This document shows, piece after piece, positions 15,063 through 23,900 of a stretch of 34,929 bases of DNA (the first letter of the stretch is position 1; each line of letters starts with the position of its first letter). The notes below the pieces were generated by a model. That model had not been told where the DNA came from, did not search any database, and was given only the letters and a program-made list of their open reading frames with translations. The position numbers and the translations under genes were made by a program. The stretch is taken from assembly GCF_025210435.1 (NCBI RefSeq), contig NZ_JAOART010000118.1, positions 1 through 34,929 on the forward strand, read 5' to 3'. The stretch is from Anaeromicrobium sp. (GTDB lineage: Bacteria > Bacillota > Clostridia > Peptostreptococcales > Thermotaleaceae).

Positions 15063-16340
15063 ATGAATATAATTAGAAAGCTAAACTTTGATAAGAAAAC
15101 CTTATTGCACTTTATGGTAGTAGCAGTTGGAAGTCAGCTAATGTATGCTATAAATTCTATTAGGAGTGTGTTGTACGAACCATTTAAAGAAGCATTGGGA
15201 GTAAATAATGCTCAACTTGGATTTTTACTTAGTCTAATAGGTATTGTATCTACTATTATGTATGTTCCTGGTGGATGGTTTCAAGATAGATTTTCAAATA
15301 GAAAGCTATTATCTATCAATTTATTTATAACAGGAATTTGTGGATTTTATCTTGCAATAGCTCCTTCATACAATGGAGCACTCATGGTGTTTGCCTTATT
15401 TGGATTGACTCAAGAAGCCTTTTACTGGGCAGCTGTGTTAAAGAGTATTAGAACTATAGCACCTGATGACAAACAGGGAACAGCCTTTGGTGCATTAGAA
15501 CTAGTTCGTGGTGGTACTGAATTTGCAACTAATGGTCTGGCCATACTGATTTTTTCAGTAGTGGGTCAAAGTGTACTAGGGGTAAAAGTGGCATTAGGTG
15601 TTGATTCAGCATTAATAATTATAATGGCCATAATAACTTGGGTTATATTACCAGAAGAGATATATATAAAGGCAGAAACGGCAAAAGAAAAAAATAAACT
15701 AGCATTAAAAGGATTGATCAAAGTTTTATCAATGCCAGAAGTTTGGTTTGTAGGAATTACAGCCGGTGGGATTTATACTATATATATAGGATTAACATAT
15801 TTTTTACCATTTTTACAAAATGTATATCATATACCCGTGGGCATGGTTGCCATATTCGGTCTTGTTAACACATCTGTAACAAGGATGATATCCAGTCCAT
15901 TAGCAGGTCTTATTGGGGATAATAAGTTTAAATCATCTACTCATTTTATGAGATTAGCTCTAGGTGTTACAATTATATTTTTAGGAATGATAATAATTGT
16001 ACCAAAAAAAGAGGCATTCATGATACCAGCATTAATTATACTTATGGGTATAACCATATTATGCTATATGTTAAGGGGTGTATATTATGCTCCCATAGGA
16101 GAATTAAATATGCCAAAGGCAGTGAGTGGTTCAGCCATGTCTGTGGCAGCATTTTTAGGATATTCACCTATGTTTTGGGCCTATGCTACTTATGGTTCTA
16201 TGATAGATAAATATGATCCTTCCATAGCTTACAATAGGATATATATGATCCAATTATGTTTTGCGGTTACAGGATTTATAATTAGTCACCTATTATGTAA
16301 GAGAATTGAAAAAAAGCAAGCAGAGAATAAAACTGCATAA
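15063..16340 (+). CDS. MFS transporter (probable sugar or organic acid permease)
   Basis: 425-aa protein with about 12 predicted transmembrane helices. The loop-2 motif PGGWFQDRFSNRKL resembles MFS motif A, and a second half starts after the cytoplasmic loop near KAETAKEKNKLALKG (about 205-220). Cargo is unknown; co-location with the TIM-barrel isomerase points to a carbohydrate or sugar acid. The in-frame GTG at 15054 overlaps the ribosome site AAAGGAG, so ATG 15063 is preferred. The gene ends at a strong terminator. Confidence 0.88.
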   Translation: MNIIRKLNFDKKTLLHFMVVAVGSQLMYAINSIRSVLYEPFKEALGVNNAQLGFLLSLIGIVSTIMYVPGGWFQDRFSNRKLLSINLFITGICGFYLAIAPSYNGALMVFALFGLTQEAFYWAAVLKSIRTIAPDDKQGTAFGALELVRGGTEFATNGLAILIFSVVGQSVLGVKVALGVDSALIIIMAIITWVILPEEIYIKAETAKEKNKLALKGLIKVLSMPEVWFVGITAGGIYTIYIGLTYFLPFLQNVYHIPVGMVAIFGLVNTSVTRMISSPLAGLIGDNKFKSSTHFMRLALGVTIIFLGMIIIVPKKEAFMIPALIILMGITILCYMLRGVYYAPIGELNMPKAVSGSAMSVAAFLGYSPMFWAYATYGSMIDKYDPSIAYNRIYMIQLCFAVTGFIISHLLCKRIEKKQAENKTA

Positions 16341-16349
16341 ATTTAATAA

Positions 16350-16376
16350 AAAAAGCACTGATATCAGTGCTTTTTT
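16350..16376 (+). terminator. Terminator after the MFS gene
   Basis: AAAAAGCACTGATATCAGTGCTTTTTT: near-perfect palindromic hairpin with flanking A and T runs, probably bidirectional. Confidence 0.9.
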
Positions 16377-16414
16377 ATAGTTTATAAATCTTTAATCTTT
16401 CTATATAAGGTCCT

Positions 16415-16653
16415 TATAGATTTCTGGTGTATAAACTTGCTTTATGCGGGCCTATTTCAGGAAAATATATTGAAAATCTTTTCCACCCCAGTCCTTGTCA
16501 CAAGCGAAAGTGTGAATCTTCGTATATAGGTTCATGTGTCATGTTGAAGTAGCATAGGATGTTGTGACGTTCCAGGGTTCCAAAGATTTTCAATATATTT
16601 TCCCTTATAGGCAAGTTACTGTATAAAACAAATTTAAAACCAATAAATCTATA
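16415..16653 (+). repeat. Element A copy 4
   Basis: Full copy. Inner arms GGAAAATATATTGAAAATC.. and ..GATTTTCAATATATTTTCC pair perfectly over 22 bp. Relative to copy 1, a T-to-C change in the left arm is matched by A-to-G in the right arm, a compensatory pair. The core is intact. Its right end abuts a truncated coding fragment (16655-16952, minus strand). Confidence 0.88.
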
Positions 16654-16654
16654 A

Positions 16655-16952
16655 TCCTATGTGTAGCTCTTTGAAGGCAGCAGTTTTCTTTAAATCTATA
16701 ACCTATACAATGTTTCATTGAACCAGGAGTATTGACTAATATTTTGCCTTTAGATAAAACTTCTTCAATAAAGGAAGCATGAACTGTTTCGCCTTTATGC
16801 TTTAGATAAGAGTCTGTACATGTGATTAATTTACTATTTACATCAAAAATGGTTATGGAATTGACAGAATATAATGACCAATTGGCAAATGGAAAACAAT
16901 ATGGAAAAAATATAAGTAATAAATAAAATATTATAATAGCATATTTAAAGAC
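16655..16952 (-). pseudogene. Possible truncated sensory domain of a sigma-54 activator
   Basis: On the minus strand about 99 codons are open. The convincing part reads SITIFDVNSKLITCTDSYL, then KHKGETVHASFIEEVLSKGK, then ILVNTPGSMKHCIGYRFKENC. It reads as real protein, and the spaced His/Cys (KHCIGYRFKENC) recalls the N-terminal sensory domains of clostridial sigma-54 activators. No start codon with a ribosome site is seen. The frame runs into element A copy 4, where the AAA+ and helix-turn-helix parts should be. The sigma-54 promoter 45 bp away, on the other strand, fits a divergent activator that has decayed. Assignment is inferential. Confidence 0.4.
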
Positions 16953-16996
16953 TTAGCCACATAAAAATAGTAGACAAGATAAACACAGAAAGTAAT

Positions 16997-17012
16997 TGGC
17001 ACAAAAAATGCT
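16997..17012 (+). promoter_or_regulatory. Sigma-54 (RpoN) promoter of the SDR/P-protein operon
   Basis: TGGCACAAAAAATGCT has the -24 GG (16998-16999) and -12 GC (17010-17011) separated by exactly 10 bp, matching the TGGCAC-N5-TTGC consensus closely. The predicted start lies near 17022, about 70 bp before the SDR gene. Such promoters need an AAA+ activator; no intact one is in the window. Confidence 0.75.
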
Positions 17013-17091
17013 TAATATAAATGGCAAGGGAAGAAAAGTTAAATCTTTATAAAATAGAAAAATTCATTTTTATGAACAGGGGGCAAAGGCT

Positions 17092-17886
17092 ATGGAAAAG
17101 AAAATGGATAAGTTATCTTTAGAGGGAAAAGTTGCTGTCATATCTGGAGCTACATCTGGAATAGGTCTAGGAACAGTAAAGCTATTATCAGAACATGGAG
17201 CAAAAATAGCTATGATTGATGTGAATGAAAAGGGGAAAGAAGAAGCAGAAAAAATTAATAGTGGTGGTGGATGTGCAGAATTTTTTAAATGTGATGTAAC
17301 AAGCCAGGAAAATGTAAAAAATACTGTAAATAAAATAAAAGAGAAGTTTGGAAAAATAGATATATTATTTAATAATGCAGGGGTAACTGTTAGAAAGAAT
17401 GTGGTTGAATTAGAAGAACACGAATGGGACTTCGTAATTAATGTAGGTCTTAAGGGTACATATTTGTTATCTAAATTTATTATCCCTATAATGGCACAAA
17501 ATGGTGGTGGAAGTATTATAAATACAGGATCTGGATGGGGTCTAAAAGGTGGAGACGATGCTGCTGCCTACTGCGCTGTTAAAGGGGGCATTGTAAATTT
17601 AACTAGAGCTATGGCAATAGACCATGGTAAGGACAAAATCAGGGTAAATAGTGTTAATCCAGGAGATACAGATACGGCCATGTTAAGGGATGAGGGAGTG
17701 CAAACGGGATTTGTGAAAGATGCAGAGAGTGAAGAAAGCTACTTAAAAGATTGTGGAACAGATAGACCATTGGCAAGGATAGGTATGCCTGAAGATATAG
17801 CTAATGCAGTGTTGTTCTTATGTAGTGATTTATCTAGTTGGGTAACGGGAAGTGCATTAGTTGTAGATGGTGGAGGAATTGCTTAG
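17092..17886 (+). CDS. Short-chain dehydrogenase/reductase (SDR)
   Basis: 264-aa classical SDR. The Rossmann nucleotide motif GATSGIGLG is at about 19-27, D39 after strand 2 (IDVNEKG) suggests NAD preference, and NNAG occurs near 93. The catalytic triad is S147 (TGSGWG), Y160 and K164 (YCAVK), and NSVNPGDTDTAM and VDGGG complete the fold. It oxidises or reduces a hydroxy/keto substrate, exact identity unknown. It is the first gene after the sigma-54 promoter. The ATG follows AGGGGGC at about 8 nt. Separation from the next gene is taken up by element B copy 2. Confidence 0.93.
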   Translation: MEKKMDKLSLEGKVAVISGATSGIGLGTVKLLSEHGAKIAMIDVNEKGKEEAEKINSGGGCAEFFKCDVTSQENVKNTVNKIKEKFGKIDILFNNAGVTVRKNVVELEEHEWDFVINVGLKGTYLLSKFIIPIMAQNGGGSIINTGSGWGLKGGDDAAAYCAVKGGIVNLTRAMAIDHGKDKIRVNSVNPGDTDTAMLRDEGVQTGFVKDAESEESYLKDCGTDRPLARIGMPEDIANAVLFLCSDLSSWVTGSALVVDGGGIA

Positions 17887-17896
17887 ATTATAAGGT

Positions 17897-18059
17897 TTAG
17901 GCATATTCAAAAAAATAAATTAGTCATTTCACTGGTTATTTGAATTATTTTCTTCGTTATGGAATCGCTTACATATGTTTAATATGGTCGCTCACCATGC
18001 CTTGAAAATAATCCAAATCCCTCAGAGAACTGACTAGTTTATTTCTTTCATATGCCTTA
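17897..18059 (+). repeat. Element B copy 2 (inside the P-protein operon)
   Basis: TTAGGCATATTC... to ...CATATGCCTTA, nearly identical to copy 1 and in the same orientation. It starts 10 bp after the SDR stop and ends 19 bp before the gcvPA-like start. When transcribed it would form a long imperfect hairpin between two cistrons. Confidence 0.88.
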
Positions 18060-18078
18060 CATATAAGGAGGAGGGCTT

Positions 18079-19485
18079 ATGGCAATGAAAGGTTTTAAAA
18101 ATCATCCATATATTCCAAATTCAGATTTGGAAATTCAAAATGAAATGTTAAAGGAAATTGGACTAAATAGTTTAGAAGAGTTACATGATGAAGTACCAGA
18201 GAGTTTAAAGTTAAAAGAGAATATGAAATTACCAAAGCCATTTAAATCAGAGTATGAATTAAAGAGACATGTGGAGAGAATATTAAAGAAAAATAAAAGT
18301 TGTAATGATTATCTAAACTTTATAGGAGCTGGGTGTGCTCAACACTATGTTCCTGCCATATGTGATGAAATAAACTCTAGGGGAGAATTTTTAACTGCCT
18401 ATGGTGGAGAACCATATAATGATCATGGTAGATTCCAATCATTATTTGAATATGAAAGCATGGTGGGAGAATTAGTAGATATGGATGTGGTAAACGTACC
18501 TACTATGGATGGTCCTCAGGCCAGTGCCACATCCATAAGAATGGCTAGTAGAATGAGTGGAAGAAAGGAAGTTTTAATTCCTAAAGTATTAGATAAGGAA
18601 AAATTCCTAATCATTAAAAACTATTGTTCACCAGATATAAACCTTATAGAGGTGGACTATGATAGAGAAACAGGATACATGAACCTAGAGGATTTAAAGA
18701 ATAAAGTTTCAGATAATACGGCTGCTGTATACTTTGAAAATCCCACATTCTTAGGAGTAATAGAACCAAATGGAGATGAAATATCAAAGATAGCCCATGG
18801 TGTAGGTGCTATTAGTGTAGTTGGAGTAGACCCAAGTTCCTTAGGACTATTAATACCTCCATCTAAGTATGGAGCAGATATAGTTTGTGGAGATCTACAA
18901 CCCTTAGGAATACATATGAATTATGGTGGTGGCCAGTCTGGATTCATGGCAACTAGGGATGAAGAAAAATATGTAATGGAATTTCCATCTAGATTATTTG
19001 GTATAGCACCTACTAATGTTGAAGGTGAATATGGATTTGGTGATGTGGCCTATGATAGAACTTCCTTTGGTCACCATAGGGAACATGGAAAAGAATATGT
19101 AGGAACTCAATCGGCCCTATGGGGTATTACAGCTGGTGTATATTTAGCCACAATGGGACCTGTGGGTATGAGAGAACTAGGAGAAGGCATACTACAAAGG
19201 AGTCAATATGCCATAGAAAAAATAAATGAAATAAAAGGTGTAAAAGGATCTTACTTTAACTCCATATCATTTAAAGAATTTGTAGTAGACTTTAATGGAA
19301 CGGGTAAAACTGTAGATGAAATAAATAGGGAATTATTAAAGAAAGAAATCTTTGGTGGTAAGGATTTATCTAAAGACTTTAAAGAATTAGGTGAATGTGC
19401 CCTTTATTGTGTGACAGAAATCCATACTAAAGAAGATATAGATAGATTGGTAAATGGAATAAAAGAAATTGTTGAAGGATGCTAA
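18079..19485 (+). CDS. Glycine dehydrogenase (decarboxylating) subunit 1-like protein
   Basis: 468-aa homologue of the alpha (N-terminal half) subunit of two-subunit glycine decarboxylase P-protein, a PLP fold-type I scaffold. Recognisable segments are NHPYIPNSDLEIQNEMLKEIG, FIGAGCAQHYVPAICDEI, FQSLFEYESMVGELVDMDVVNV and GIAPTNVEGEYGF. Several normally conserved stretches differ: GAGAYDHYIP is GAGCAQHYVP, and YTPYQPE is replaced by YGGEPYN. This is therefore a divergent paralogue whose substrate may not be glycine. No gcvT or gcvH is near. A strong AGGAGGAGGG site precedes the ATG. The partner subunit follows after 25 bp. Confidence 0.85.
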   Translation: MAMKGFKNHPYIPNSDLEIQNEMLKEIGLNSLEELHDEVPESLKLKENMKLPKPFKSEYELKRHVERILKKNKSCNDYLNFIGAGCAQHYVPAICDEINSRGEFLTAYGGEPYNDHGRFQSLFEYESMVGELVDMDVVNVPTMDGPQASATSIRMASRMSGRKEVLIPKVLDKEKFLIIKNYCSPDINLIEVDYDRETGYMNLEDLKNKVSDNTAAVYFENPTFLGVIEPNGDEISKIAHGVGAISVVGVDPSSLGLLIPPSKYGADIVCGDLQPLGIHMNYGGGQSGFMATRDEEKYVMEFPSRLFGIAPTNVEGEYGFGDVAYDRTSFGHHREHGKEYVGTQSALWGITAGVYLATMGPVGMRELGEGILQRSQYAIEKINEIKGVKGSYFNSISFKEFVVDFNGTGKTVDEINRELLKKEIFGGKDLSKDFKELGECALYCVTEIHTKEDIDRLVNGIKEIVEGC

Positions 19486-19510
19486 GACAAAATAAGAGAG
19501 GTGAATATGA

Positions 19511-21082
19511 ATGAAGAGAATAGATAGAAACTATAAGGTTAGGAACTTCCATCAAGCAAAATGGGATGAGCCAATAATATATGAGTTAAGTAAAAAAGGT
19601 GAAAGGGGTATTTTAGTTCCAGAAGTTTCTGATGAAATAAAAGATAGGGTGGGAGAGTGTACTTCAAAATTACCTAAGGGTATGTTAAGAAAGGAGCCAG
19701 TTAACTTACCTGAAATATCTCAATCTAGAGTACTAAGACATTACATGAGATTATCGCAGCAAACTTTAGGTGCAGATGTGAATATAGAAATAGGTCAAGG
19801 AACTTGTACGGTAAAGTATAGTCCTAAAATAAATGAACAATTTGCAAGAATGCCTCAAATAACAGAACTACATCCTCTTCAAGATGAATCTACTGTACAG
19901 GGAATGTTAGAGATTATCCATAGTACAGATGAATACATGAGAGAAATATCTGGCATGAGTAGATTCACATTTCAACCAGGAGGAGGAAGTCAAGGGATAC
20001 TAGCCATGGCTTCTATCATTAGAAAGTATCATGAAGATAAGGGTAATCATAAGACAAAGGATGAAATAATAACTACCATATATTCTCATCCATCTGATGC
20101 AGCAGCACCAGCTGTTAAGGGATATAAGATAATATATATTCATCCAGATGAAAATGGATATCCAGACTTTGAGGCATTTAGGGCTGCCGTAAATGAAAGA
20201 ACGGCAGGATTTATAGTGGCAAATCCAGAGGATACGGGAGTATATAATCCAAGGGTTAAAGAGTTCACGTCCTTAGTTCATGAATACGATGGCCTTTGTG
20301 GATATGATCAGGCTAATGCAAATGGATTATTAGGTGTAACGAGGGCTAAAGAAGCAGGATTTGATATGTGTTTCTTTAATCTACATAAGACCTTCTCAAC
20401 ACCACATGGTTGTGGTGGACCTGCATCAGGAGCCACAGGAGTAGTGGAGAAATTAGTAAAATATTTACCAGGACCTTTAGTAGAAAAGAGTGAAGGTAAA
20501 TATAAGTTGAGCTATGATCTTTTAGATGAGGAATATAGTATAGGGAAGGTGAGAATGTTCTTAGGTGTGGCCCCTGTAATACTTAAAGCTTATTCATGGA
20601 TAAGAAGCCTTGGAGCAGAAGGATTATATGAAGTTGCTAAGATAGCCGTACTTAATAATAACTATCTATTTAGTAAGTTAATGAATATTGATTGTGTAGA
20701 TGCTCCTTATATTAGAGGAAAGCAAAGAATTGAACAGGTTAGATATACTATTGAAAAATTAACTAAGGATACGGGTGTTACTACAGGGGATATTCAACGT
20801 AGAATGATGGACTTTGGAATGCACTACTGGACTAGTCACCATCCTTATCATATTCCAGAGCCAATAACATTAGAGCCTACAGAAACTCCATCTAAGGAAG
20901 ATTTAGATGAGTATATTGCCACATTAGAACACATATTTAAAGAGTGTTACGAAAATCCTGAAATAGTAAAAACTGCACCCCATAGTAGTGTGTGTCACCA
21001 AGTGGATGAATCTAGTTTAGATGATCCTAGTGAATGGGCATTATCTTGGAGAACTTATCTAAGAAAGACTTCAAATGAGTAA
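19511..21082 (+). CDS. Glycine dehydrogenase (decarboxylating) subunit 2-like protein
   Basis: 523-aa homologue of the beta (C-terminal half) subunit of P-protein. It carries the PLP-binding lysine K293 in FFNLHKTFSTPHGCGGP, so it should be catalytically competent. FTFQPGGGSQGILAM and YDQANANGLLG are further P-protein hallmarks. After the lysine motif it reads ASGATGVVEKLVKYLPGPL rather than the usual GSGPVGV...FLP.P, and it is somewhat longer than the usual 480-500 aa. With the 468-aa subunit it should form an alpha2beta2 PLP-dependent decarboxylase or lyase. Downstream, 12 bp away, is the kinase-like gene. Confidence 0.87.
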   Translation: MKRIDRNYKVRNFHQAKWDEPIIYELSKKGERGILVPEVSDEIKDRVGECTSKLPKGMLRKEPVNLPEISQSRVLRHYMRLSQQTLGADVNIEIGQGTCTVKYSPKINEQFARMPQITELHPLQDESTVQGMLEIIHSTDEYMREISGMSRFTFQPGGGSQGILAMASIIRKYHEDKGNHKTKDEIITTIYSHPSDAAAPAVKGYKIIYIHPDENGYPDFEAFRAAVNERTAGFIVANPEDTGVYNPRVKEFTSLVHEYDGLCGYDQANANGLLGVTRAKEAGFDMCFFNLHKTFSTPHGCGGPASGATGVVEKLVKYLPGPLVEKSEGKYKLSYDLLDEEYSIGKVRMFLGVAPVILKAYSWIRSLGAEGLYEVAKIAVLNNNYLFSKLMNIDCVDAPYIRGKQRIEQVRYTIEKLTKDTGVTTGDIQRRMMDFGMHYWTSHHPYHIPEPITLEPTETPSKEDLDEYIATLEHIFKECYENPEIVKTAPHSSVCHQVDESSLDDPSEWALSWRTYLRKTSNE

Positions 21083-21094
21083 GGGATAGAAAAA

Positions 21095-22204
21095 TTGAAA
21101 AAGATAGGATTAATAATAAATCCCATTGCAGGTATGGGTGGGAGAGTTGGATTAAAAGGTACTGACGGGATGGTACAAAGGGCCATAGAGCTTGGGGCCA
21201 TCCCCCAGGCACCTAAAAGGGCAAAAAAAGCCCTAATAGAGTTAGTTCATATGAAAGATAGTATCCAATTAGTGACGGCTTATGGTGAAATGGGAGAAAG
21301 TGTAGGAAAGGAATTTGGATTTAATACTAAAACTGTTTATAGGAGTTCAAAGTTAAACACATCTTCTGAAGATACAATAAAAGCAGCTAGGGAAATTATG
21401 AAGGAAAATATAGATATACTAATATTTGCCGGTGGAGATGGAACGGCTAGGGACATATTCAATGGTGTTGGACTCCATTGTGTGACCATAGGTATTCCTG
21501 CAGGAGTAAAGATACATTCTCCTGTATATGCAAAGAATCCTAAAAAAGCTGGTGAATTAGTAAGGAAATATATAAATGGAAAAATAAAAGAAGTAAATGA
21601 AGTGGAAGTTTTAGATATTGATGAGGATGCTTATCGAAGGGGCATAGTGAATACCCAATTATATGGATATCTTAATATACCTTATGAAAAGAACTTCACA
21701 CAAAATAGAAAGGCACCATCACCCCTTAGTGAAAGGGCAAATCAAAATCTAATAGGATTAGAAATTATAGATAATATGGAAGAAGATATATTGTACATAA
21801 TAGGTCCAGGAACTACCACAAGGGCAATCATGGAGAATTTAAATCTGCCTAATTCCCTATTAGGGGTAGATTTGGTAATGAATAAAAATATAGTAAAGAA
21901 TGATGTTACAGAAAAAGAAATACTAAAAGAAATAAAGGGTAGGAAGTGCAAGTTAATATTAACTCCAACGGGAGGCCAAGGATACATATTAGGAAGGGGA
22001 AACCATCAAATAAGTCCTTCTGTTATTGAGTATGTGGGGAAAAATAATATTATAGTAGTGAGCACACGGGAGAAGATAAAGTCTTTACAAGGACGTCCCT
22101 TGATGGTGGACATGGGGAATGAAGAAGTAGATAAAAGTTTAAGTGGATATATGAGAATAACTATTGGATATGGTGAATACACCATGTATCTAGTAAAATT
22201 TTAA
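21095..22204 (+). CDS. ATP-NAD kinase family (AcoX-like) protein
   Basis: 369-aa protein of the NAD-kinase/diacylglycerol-kinase superfamily. The N-terminus GLIINPIAGMGGRVGLKGTD and nucleotide motif GGDGT (113-117, in FAGGDGTARD) are clear, as is a C-terminal domain with IGPGTTTRAIMENL, LLGVDLV and PTGGQGYILGRGNHQ. This long form resembles AcoX-type proteins in catabolic operons, whose substrate is not settled; it is distinct from housekeeping NadK. The start is TTG, with AAGGGAT about 8 nt upstream, 12 bp after the P-protein beta gene, so it is tightly coupled to it. Confidence 0.85.
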   Translation: MKKIGLIINPIAGMGGRVGLKGTDGMVQRAIELGAIPQAPKRAKKALIELVHMKDSIQLVTAYGEMGESVGKEFGFNTKTVYRSSKLNTSSEDTIKAAREIMKENIDILIFAGGDGTARDIFNGVGLHCVTIGIPAGVKIHSPVYAKNPKKAGELVRKYINGKIKEVNEVEVLDIDEDAYRRGIVNTQLYGYLNIPYEKNFTQNRKAPSPLSERANQNLIGLEIIDNMEEDILYIIGPGTTTRAIMENLNLPNSLLGVDLVMNKNIVKNDVTEKEILKEIKGRKCKLILTPTGGQGYILGRGNHQISPSVIEYVGKNNIIVVSTREKIKSLQGRPLMVDMGNEEVDKSLSGYMRITIGYGEYTMYLVKF

Positions 22205-22283
22205 AAGTGGTATTTAGGAGATGTAAATGTGTCATATATGCTATAGGTTATTTATATATATAAATAAAAAGGGAGGATGAATT

Positions 22284-23741
22284 ATGGCATTATTAAAGAT
22301 ATCACCTATATTTGTACTGGCAGGACTTATGATAAGTGGAATGGACGTATTATTGGCAGCACCAATGGCCACTATAGTTGCTGTTTTAATTGCAATGGCC
22401 ACGGAAAAGTATTCTTTTAAGAAAATATTGGATTTGGCTTTAAACAATGTGAGAGAAATCGTAATTGTATTTTTTATTCTTATGTTTGCTTATGGTTTGG
22501 CAGAGTCCTTTATGGCTACAGGTGTTGGAGCTTCCATCATTATCATGTCTTTAAAGATGGGAGTAACAGCAAAGAGTGTGGCAGTAGTTGGATTTATAGT
22601 TACATGTATATTATCAATTGCAACGGGAACTAGTTGGGGAACCTTTGCAGCCTGTGCTCCTGTATTTTTATGGTTAAACCATATAGTAGGTGGAGATATA
22701 TTATTAACAGTGGCATCCATAGCTGGTGGAGCATGTTTTGGAGATAATATTGGTCTTATATCTGATACAACCGTGTTAAGTTCTGGATTACAACAAGTAG
22801 AGATTATACACAGAGTTAGACATCAAGGTCCTTGGTCTGGTTTATGTTTAATATTAACAGCCATTGTAATATTCATAACAGGAAATATTATGGGTCTTCC
22901 TTCAACAGTGGGAAATGCCACAGAAGCAATAAATCAAATTCCTCCAGAAGCATGGGCTTCATTAGCAGAACAAAGGGCATCAGCAGTAACTTTACTAGAG
23001 CAAGTTCAGGCAGGTGTACCATTTTATATGATAATACCTCTTATCATAGTTATAGGTATGGCTGTTAAAGGATTCCAAACTATGATTTGTTTAGGAGCTG
23101 GAATAGTATCATCCCTAATATTAGGAACAGTTGCTGGAACAGTGGAATCTTTAAATGGATTTTTAGAACTAATATATACAGGTTTTTCAGATGCAGGTAG
23201 TTGGTCCATAGTAATGATGATGTGGGTAGCTGCATTTGGAGGAATAATGAATAGCATGAAGGCCTTTGAACCTATATCTAAGACAATAGTATCTATGGCT
23301 AGAAATGTGAGACAGTTAATGTGCTGTAATGCACTATTATGTTTAATAGGTAATGCTGCATTAGGAGATGAAACGGCAGAAATAGTAACAATAAGTCCTA
23401 TTATGAAAACCATAACTGATGAAAACGTGGAAGCTAGTGAAGAAGACATGTATAATTTAAGACTTAGAAATGCAACCTTTGCCGATGCAATGGGAGTTTA
23501 TGGATCACAACTTATTCCTTGGCACTGTTTCGTATTATTCTATGTGGCCATAGCAAAAGCGGTATATCCTCTTCATAGTTTTGTTCCAACGGATATTATA
23601 AGATACAACTTTATGGCCTACATAGCAGTAGGGTCCATGTTAATATTAACCTTCACTGGTTGGGATAGATTCATACCATTATTCGGCCTACCACGTGAGC
23701 CAAAGGTTAAGTTAAGAAAGAGAACTTCTTTAGTTAAATAA
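22284..23741 (+). CDS. NhaC-family Na+/H+ antiporter-type transporter
   Basis: 485-aa polytopic membrane protein with about 11-13 hydrophobic helices and the NhaC signature segments ATGTSWGTFAACAPVFLWL and GGACFGDNIGLISDTTVLSS. A further conserved region includes ALGDETAEIVTISPIM and YGSQLIPWH. Members exchange Na+ for H+ or for organic acids (MleN type), so in this operon it may exchange a product or substrate. GGGAGG precedes the ATG by 7 nt. Its TAA stop is formed by the first bases of element B copy 3. A 97-bp stretch (23419-23515) recurs at 25523-25619. Confidence 0.92.
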   Translation: MALLKISPIFVLAGLMISGMDVLLAAPMATIVAVLIAMATEKYSFKKILDLALNNVREIVIVFFILMFAYGLAESFMATGVGASIIIMSLKMGVTAKSVAVVGFIVTCILSIATGTSWGTFAACAPVFLWLNHIVGGDILLTVASIAGGACFGDNIGLISDTTVLSSGLQQVEIIHRVRHQGPWSGLCLILTAIVIFITGNIMGLPSTVGNATEAINQIPPEAWASLAEQRASAVTLLEQVQAGVPFYMIIPLIIVIGMAVKGFQTMICLGAGIVSSLILGTVAGTVESLNGFLELIYTGFSDAGSWSIVMMMWVAAFGGIMNSMKAFEPISKTIVSMARNVRQLMCCNALLCLIGNAALGDETAEIVTISPIMKTITDENVEASEEDMYNLRLRNATFADAMGVYGSQLIPWHCFVLFYVAIAKAVYPLHSFVPTDIIRYNFMAYIAVGSMLILTFTGWDRFIPLFGLPREPKVKLRKRTSLVK

Positions 23742-23900
23742 GGCATATGAAAAAAATAAACTAGTCAATTTTCTGAGGGATTTGGATTATTTTCAAGGCA
23801 TGGTGAGCGAGCATATTGAACATATGTAAGCGATTCCATAACGAAGAAAATATTTTAAATAACCAGTGAAATGACTAATTTATTTTTTGAATATGCCTAA
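23739..23900 (-). repeat. Element B copy 3 (inverted)
   Basis: TAAGGCATATGAAAAAAATA... to ...GAATATGCCTAA, the reverse complement of copies 1 and 2. It begins at the nhaC stop codon, supplying the TAA, and is followed by a terminator at 23909-23945. Confidence 0.88.

Follow-up and report, generated by a model that had tools for sequence, protein, structure and literature searches.

We describe a five-gene module in a 34,929-nucleotide stretch of DNA from Anaeromicrobium sp. (NCBI RefSeq assembly GCF_025210435.1, contig NZ_JAOART010000118.1, positions 1 to 34,929; hereafter the window), in which two subunits resembling the P-protein (glycine decarboxylase) of the glycine cleavage system are encoded together with a dehydrogenase, an AcoX/NAD-kinase-like protein and a transporter. 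Comparisons of sequences establish that the P-like pair forms a separate family within a conserved module, that some carriers have none of the P-, T- and H-proteins of glycine cleavage, and that in some lineages the module adjoins genes for sugar and lysine carriers. We see an even chance that the module is a dedicated catabolic route for 5-hydroxylysine. The fuller proposal is put forward tentatively: this lipoyl-free branch of the glycine decarboxylases may be an alpha-aminoketone C-C hydrolase that, with the SDR dehydrogenase, converts 5-hydroxylysine to glutamate and methylamine, Bacilli importing the intact collagen sugar conjugate.

The window is contig C73 of a genome of 3.96 Mb (148 contigs, 93% complete). 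Its positions 17092-23741 hold five genes on the same strand, and domain and NCBIfam matches for all five bore out the gene set of an earlier, preliminary description:

17092..17886, + strand: SDR dehydrogenase (SDR1); PF13561, 220 bits; PF00106
18079..19485, + strand: P-protein-like subunit PA (GcvPA-like); PF02347, 205 bits; PRK00451, 484 bits
19511..21082, + strand: P-protein-like subunit PB (GcvPB-like), with the pyridoxal phosphate (PLP) lysine K293; NCBIfam PRK04366, 564 bits
21095..22204, + strand: AcoX/NAD-kinase-like protein, TTG start; PF01513/PF20143
22284..23741, + strand: NhaC-family transporter; PF03553, 87 bits

The transporter passed the wider PF03553 family but missed the NhaC equivalog cut-off (TIGR00931, 60 vs 370 bits). 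As previously described, no gcvT, gcvH or lpd gene is linked: none was seen by eye among the window's open reading frames of at least 100 residues.

The P-like pair is distinct from canonical glycine decarboxylase

In a tree of PB sequences, 29 canonical and 56 P-like rows were split by a branch with a Shimodaira-Hasegawa-like approximate likelihood ratio (SH-aLRT) support of 100. The tree was built by a quick method from 85 of 146 PB rows; clade A, the window's own, was represented by 39 hand-picked rows of about 100, and the canonical rows of Thermus, Deinococcus and Natrinema were long-branched. The PB set left out L054 (partial PB) and the short second PB of the same-genus genome G001 (L065); loci L148-L177 were also omitted from the comparison. 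The other P-like groups are clade B, from other Clostridia, which the tree does not recover as a single clade, and clade C, found on plasmids of Rhodococcus, Gemmobacter, Sphingomonas, Paracoccus, Roseicitreum, Antarctobacter and a haloarchaeon. PB identity to the 29 canonical rows was 33-41%. Full-length PB matches among 99 relatives fell into three identity bands (69-92%, 52-57% and 37-42%), with partial matches off these bands at 47% (G068) and 31% (G001). Canonical PA/PB genes are present separately in the window genome, on contig C44 together with T and H; the presence of an H-protein elsewhere in the genome, a point raised in the preliminary description, is thereby settled.

The PLP lysine K293 (HKTF motif), already reported, is conserved in P-like and canonical rows alike. 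The alteration of otherwise conserved P-protein stretches was also confirmed: 25 PA and 39 PB columns were fixed both in clade A and in canonical rows but in different states, counts that include gap columns and are not weighted for relatedness. The clearest change is a rebuilt PA loop, in which canonical TPYQPExSQG becomes GG-EPYNDHG; the canonical Tyr is absent from the majority of clade A and from all clade B and clade C rows. R411, invariant in P-like PB rows, was not used, as it aligned with a canonical Glu in one alignment and differently in another, nor was a PB structure model with a mean predicted local distance difference test score (pLDDT) of 63.

Annotation models name the pair as glycine decarboxylase, and both subunits passed the NCBIfam cut-offs (PRK00451, 484 vs 364 bits; PRK04366, 564 vs 441 bits), as would an ordinary second copy of that enzyme. 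This identity is contradicted by the tree, the PA loop, the neighbourhood and the partnerless carriers described below, and we regard it as very improbable. A place in the canonical clade, an identical active site and an unconserved neighbourhood were each tested, and all three were contradicted. As judged from these comparisons, the P-like pair constitutes a family of its own, not a copy of glycine decarboxylase. The separate clade, altered loop, conserved neighbourhood and carriers lacking P, T and H also strengthen the earlier suggestion that the substrate may not be glycine.

Other unusual P-protein pairs were seen during this survey. In G001, a further divergent pair (L065, C23:4805-7113; PA 286 bits, PB-like piece 31% identical to window PB) lies just upstream of canonical glycine cleavage genes. 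On a plasmid of Deinococcus sp. QL22 (L188), a pair that groups with the canonical rows on a long branch adjoins a class III aminotransferase gene, with no T or H gene within the 7.4 kb shown.

Some carriers have no glycine cleavage system

Among 42 carrier rows (G036/G106 and G068/G109 being genomes present twice), 31 had a T match, and the same 31, the window genome included, had a strong H match. Neither T nor H was matched in the other 11 rows, which come from 10 genomes. A recheck for canonical P covered 8 of these genomes and found it in none of them (G009, G010, G014, G036 Proteocatella sphenisci, G038, G043, G100 and G103); the other two, G004 and G075, are 75-76% complete. G009, at 98% completeness, consists of a single contig, G100 is the complete chromosome of Clostridium cadaveris, and G103 is Clostridium symbiosum. 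The clade A and B modules read had no recognisable T or H gene beside them. Because some carriers are without P, T and H, the reaction cannot require lipoyl-H transfer in every carrier.

The 31 rows with both T and H, among them that of the window genome, are what would be expected if the one-carbon unit were instead passed to the H-/T-protein, or to another acceptor where these are missing, and methylamine were not released. Such a lipoyl-linked variant is quite unlikely, given the 11 rows with neither protein and the clade A and B modules read, beside which neither gene was recognised. Annotation models file the P-like proteins as glycine dehydrogenase, and genomes without a glycine cleavage system consequently seem to hold part of one.

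The module is conserved across distant lineages

Scanning species genomes turned up 349 relatives, and the locus counts below refer to the best 80 (60 non-Bacilli, 20 Bacilli). A second Bacilli set of 30 loci has 5 in common with the first, giving 45 distinct Bacilli loci. Several genomes occur twice in L035-L053 and L068-L147 (e.g. L050/L096, L036/L132). Carriers belong to the Bacillota (Clostridia, Bacilli), Desulfobacterota, Spirochaetia, a Sumerlaeota and Asgard metagenome-assembled genomes. PA precedes PB in 79 of the 80 loci, the SDR gene directly precedes PA in 67, and the AcoX-like gene comes next in 54. The gene set is conserved in that SDR-PA-PB is shared from Clostridia to Bacilli, Desulfobacterota and the Asgard genomes.

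The AcoX-like gene is near the module in 56/60 non-Bacilli loci and 6/9 clade B loci, and in none of the 45 distinct Bacilli loci; it stands directly before PA in 7/8 clade C plasmids (six annotated, RHA1 by eye). NAD_kinase domains are present in the protein, and its GGDGT motif is invariant in 19 aligned rows. A role in supplying nicotinamide adenine dinucleotide phosphate was set aside, as the SDR carries by eye the Asp that we take to mark NAD-type SDRs.

Transporters near the module vary and include NhaC, TRAP, sugar ABC, amino-acid ABC, LysP and APC types, amino-acid ABC and LysP occurring in single loci. An NhaC-type gene was near the module in 25 of the 60 non-Bacilli loci, and TRAP genes near 3. 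On clade C1 plasmids the module occurs with a dehydrogenase and an acyl-coenzyme A (acyl-CoA) synthetase, and in Gemmobacter only with a primary-amine oxidase. The preliminary description had read the cluster as a dedicated catabolic route for an amino-acid-like or acetoin-like substrate. The neighbours support the first kind of substrate; an acetoin route was rejected, no acetoin dehydrogenase genes being recognised among the neighbours read.

Further neighbours were noted in individual lineages. Clade C2 plasmids (L182, L183, L184) carry AcoX-like-PA-PB near genes for a dihydrodipicolinate synthase-family protein, a flavin adenine dinucleotide (FAD) oxidoreductase and an SDR, a set that recalls hydroxyproline catabolism. 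An Amidohydro_3-type amidohydrolase, often with a second SDR, is found near the module in gut and soil Clostridia (L087, L098, L101, L105, L128). In the Bacilli locus L231, a second APC permease and a formamidase-like protein (15668-16612, 86 of 500 bits) are near the module. Read by eye, L039 and L040 have genes for thioredoxin reductase and thioredoxin, along with glycine-reductase-like ones, several kb downstream.

Neighbouring genes suggest a lysine-like beta-galactoside

The Bacilli modules are accompanied by a sugar ABC importer and a GH2 beta-galactosidase of LacZ type. GH2 was found in 16/20 loci of the first Bacilli set and 26/30 of the second; gene order varies, and all 43 matches share the operon's strand. 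A LacZ small-chain domain was present in 16 of 18 Bacilli carriers searched, and in each of the 16 a copy lay no more than about 12 kb from the module; 8 of them hold a single copy, which in all 8 is beside the module. These 18 genomes were chosen from 36 carriers, related species not being weighted. The two without LacZ, G350 and G390 (L231 and L232), have LysP in the stretch read, and that of L231 matches the solved lysine-specific permease 9eyd at 628 bits. A LysP-family permease also lies between the activator and SDR genes in Clostridium sp. OS1-26 (L103). A GH63-like hydrolase was within 9 kb in 21 of the 45 distinct Bacilli loci.

These neighbours narrow the substrate down to an amino acid that resembles lysine and is also found as a beta-galactoside, a combination that suggests the (glucosyl)galactosyl-5-hydroxylysine of collagen. 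Among common amino acids, we know of none besides hydroxylysine that would account for both a lysine permease and a beta-galactosidase. Lactose Amadori compounds were set aside by reasoning only: lactulosyl-lysine is a secondary amine and needs other enzymes. The 5-hydroxylysine of collagen bears Gal or Glc-Gal on its hydroxyl (PMC6602307, PMC3510199).

The wide differences in transporters among loci, and the acyl-CoA synthetase that clade C has instead, would also fit the same alpha-aminoketone chemistry acting on another amino alcohol, either the aglycone of a different beta-galactoside or clade-specific compounds. A lysine permease and a beta-galactosidase nevertheless both occur beside the module within clade A, and we consider this alternative unlikely. 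Rather unlikely, too, is a route for a beta-hydroxy-alpha-amino acid such as threonine, in which the dehydrogenase would form a beta-keto amino acid and PA/PB would split it with CoA, in the manner of KBL, to glycine and an acyl-CoA. In its favour, the dehydrogenase of the clade B locus L058 is a zinc-dependent alcohol dehydrogenase that scores best against the threonine 3-dehydrogenase model (260 bits vs a cut-off of 380), and glycine-reductase-like genes occur downstream in L039 and L040. This route leaves the beta-galactosidase link and LysP unexplained, and the clade B substrate may differ from that of clade A.

A proposed route for 5-hydroxylysine

For the substrate, the step order, the products and the use of the same substrate in the window's lineage as in Bacilli, we infer the following route. 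NhaC, or one of the LysP, TRAP or amino-acid ABC carriers of relatives, would import the amino acid; in Bacilli, the sugar importer and beta-galactosidase would first release hydroxylysine from the (glucosyl)galactosyl-hydroxylysine of collagen. The SDR would then oxidise the side-chain hydroxyl to a ketone, giving 2,6-diamino-5-oxohexanoate, an alpha-aminoketone. Its H2N-CH2-C(=O)- end resembles glycine and could offer a handle to a P-protein-like enzyme. PA/PB is predicted to form a PLP aldimine on this aminomethyl-ketone end and, needing neither lipoyl H-protein nor T-protein, to cleave the bond next to the ketone. The products would most simply be glutamate and methylamine, methylamine being proposed because there is no lipoyl acceptor. 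On clade C1 plasmids the same chemistry may act on substrates with other R groups, the acyl-CoA synthetase taking up the acid and, in Gemmobacter only, the amine oxidase the methylamine.

Besides the annotation cut-offs given above, several observations weigh against this hydroxylysine route. GH2 was near the module in 0/60 non-Bacilli loci, and the sugar link reaches the window only via orthology (PB 64-66% identical). Just 3 loci had LysP near the module, two of these being 97% identical, and neither GH2 nor LysP was in the stretch read of L134 and L224. The window transporter was not lysine-specific by any model searched, and for the binding proteins of the amino-acid ABC systems in L143 and L231, the lysine/arginine/ornithine and the cystine models score alike, neither cut-off being reached. 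The best NCBIfam model for the GH63-like hydrolase gave just 61 of 550 bits. No methylamine-using gene was recognised beside clade A loci, and the AcoX-like protein is left unexplained. If true, the hydroxylysine route would provide genes by which bacteria break down hydroxylysine, the signature amino acid of collagen, and the conjugate it forms with sugar; it would also add a PLP reaction new to a long-known enzyme family.

A sigma-54-type promoter site lies beside a decayed activator gene

The non-coding and remnant features around the operon are as follows:

16996..17011, + strand: -24/-12 (sigma-54 type) promoter site, exact TTGGCAC-N6-TGC
16385..16853, - strand: decayed divergent sigma-54 activator gene, in pieces 16853-16680 and 16420-16385 (tblastn)
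17910..18059: 150-bp repeat element, copy between SDR and PA, 95% complementary to 23739-23888
23739..23888: 150-bp repeat element, inverted copy past NhaC

The -24/-12 promoter reported before SDR is present and exact. With one mismatch allowed it was the sole match in the window against 0.58 expected, and 43/100 shuffles held one; taken alone, the site is weak evidence for sigma-54. Among the relatives' loci, 21 of 61 that have a divergent activator gene carry a strict site upstream of the operon, compared with 1 of 67 that lack the gene, against a summed expectation of about 0.07 under mononucleotide shuffling; the other 40 activator-bearing loci had no strict site, and several genomes are counted twice in this set. 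Because strict sites cluster in loci with a divergent activator, the window site gains weight. The rpoN gene, whose presence elsewhere in the genome had been left as a question, was located on contig C136.

In G001 (L035), an intact 578-residue activator with a Sigma54_activat domain faces the operon, and an activator match was near the module (within 9 kb) in 36/60 non-Bacilli loci. The window retains residues 30-87 of the G001 activator at 16853-16680 (79% identity, E 1e-24) and a C-terminal trace, residues 564-575, at 16420-16385 (E 0.45, weak alone); tblastn found no remaining part of it in the window. Elsewhere in the window genome, 18 activator-like genes were matched. The best homologue, on C135, is 39% identical at 374 bits, and locus-linked activators aligned end to end, with a different program, give 411-624 bits and 40-54%. 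The C135 protein appears slightly more distant than the locus-linked ones, yet could serve the operon. Since the adjoining activator is only a remnant, the operon may in this organism be poorly expressed, silent or served by an activator-like gene elsewhere, the assembly being incomplete. The label "sigma-54-driven" holds for the family, but not straightforwardly here, where the adjoining activator has decayed.

The close spacing previously noted is corrected for the two repeat copies: one (17910-18059) splits SDR and PA, and the other (23739-23888) follows NhaC. The two inverted copies (95%) flank PA-PB-AcoX-NhaC. The first is absent at the matching place in G001, where the matching ends overlap by ~8 bases, as expected from a target-site duplication. 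An inverted-repeat element at 16460-16603 (arms of 29 nucleotides, 90%) sits between the two activator remnants.

Relation to known systems

The P-like pair shares its fold family, two-subunit build, PLP lysine and several active-site residues (K293, H193, D266, H292) with the P-protein of Thermus thermophilus (1wyt/1wyu/1wyv). Unlike the P-protein of glycine cleavage, the pair falls in a separate clade, has a changed PA loop and other neighbours, and occurs in carriers without T and H. The AcoX-like protein has the NAD_kinase domains and GGDGT motif of AcoX from acetoin operons and the ATP-NAD kinase family; unlike that AcoX, compared by description, it adjoins P-like enzymes and not acetoin dehydrogenase.

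PLP-dependent C-C cleavage beside a ketone is carried out by kynureninase and 2-amino-3-ketobutyrate CoA ligase, and the PLP enzyme of the ornithine fermentation operon also cleaves beside a ketone. The chemistry proposed for PA/PB would be that of the first two enzymes, which belong to other families and were compared by description only. The ornithine operon ord-ortBA-oraSEF-orr-nhaC is reported to be under OrdR and sigma-54 (PMC6615313). It resembles the module in its sigma-54 activator, dehydrogenase, PLP enzyme and NhaC transporter; its enzymes are other ones, OrtAB being compared by description only. In the literature searched, which misses most subscription journals, neither the cluster nor a bacterial pathway for hydroxylysine was described, and prior work is possible. 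The fold family and the operon style are known; the branch, its partners and its substrate are apparently new.

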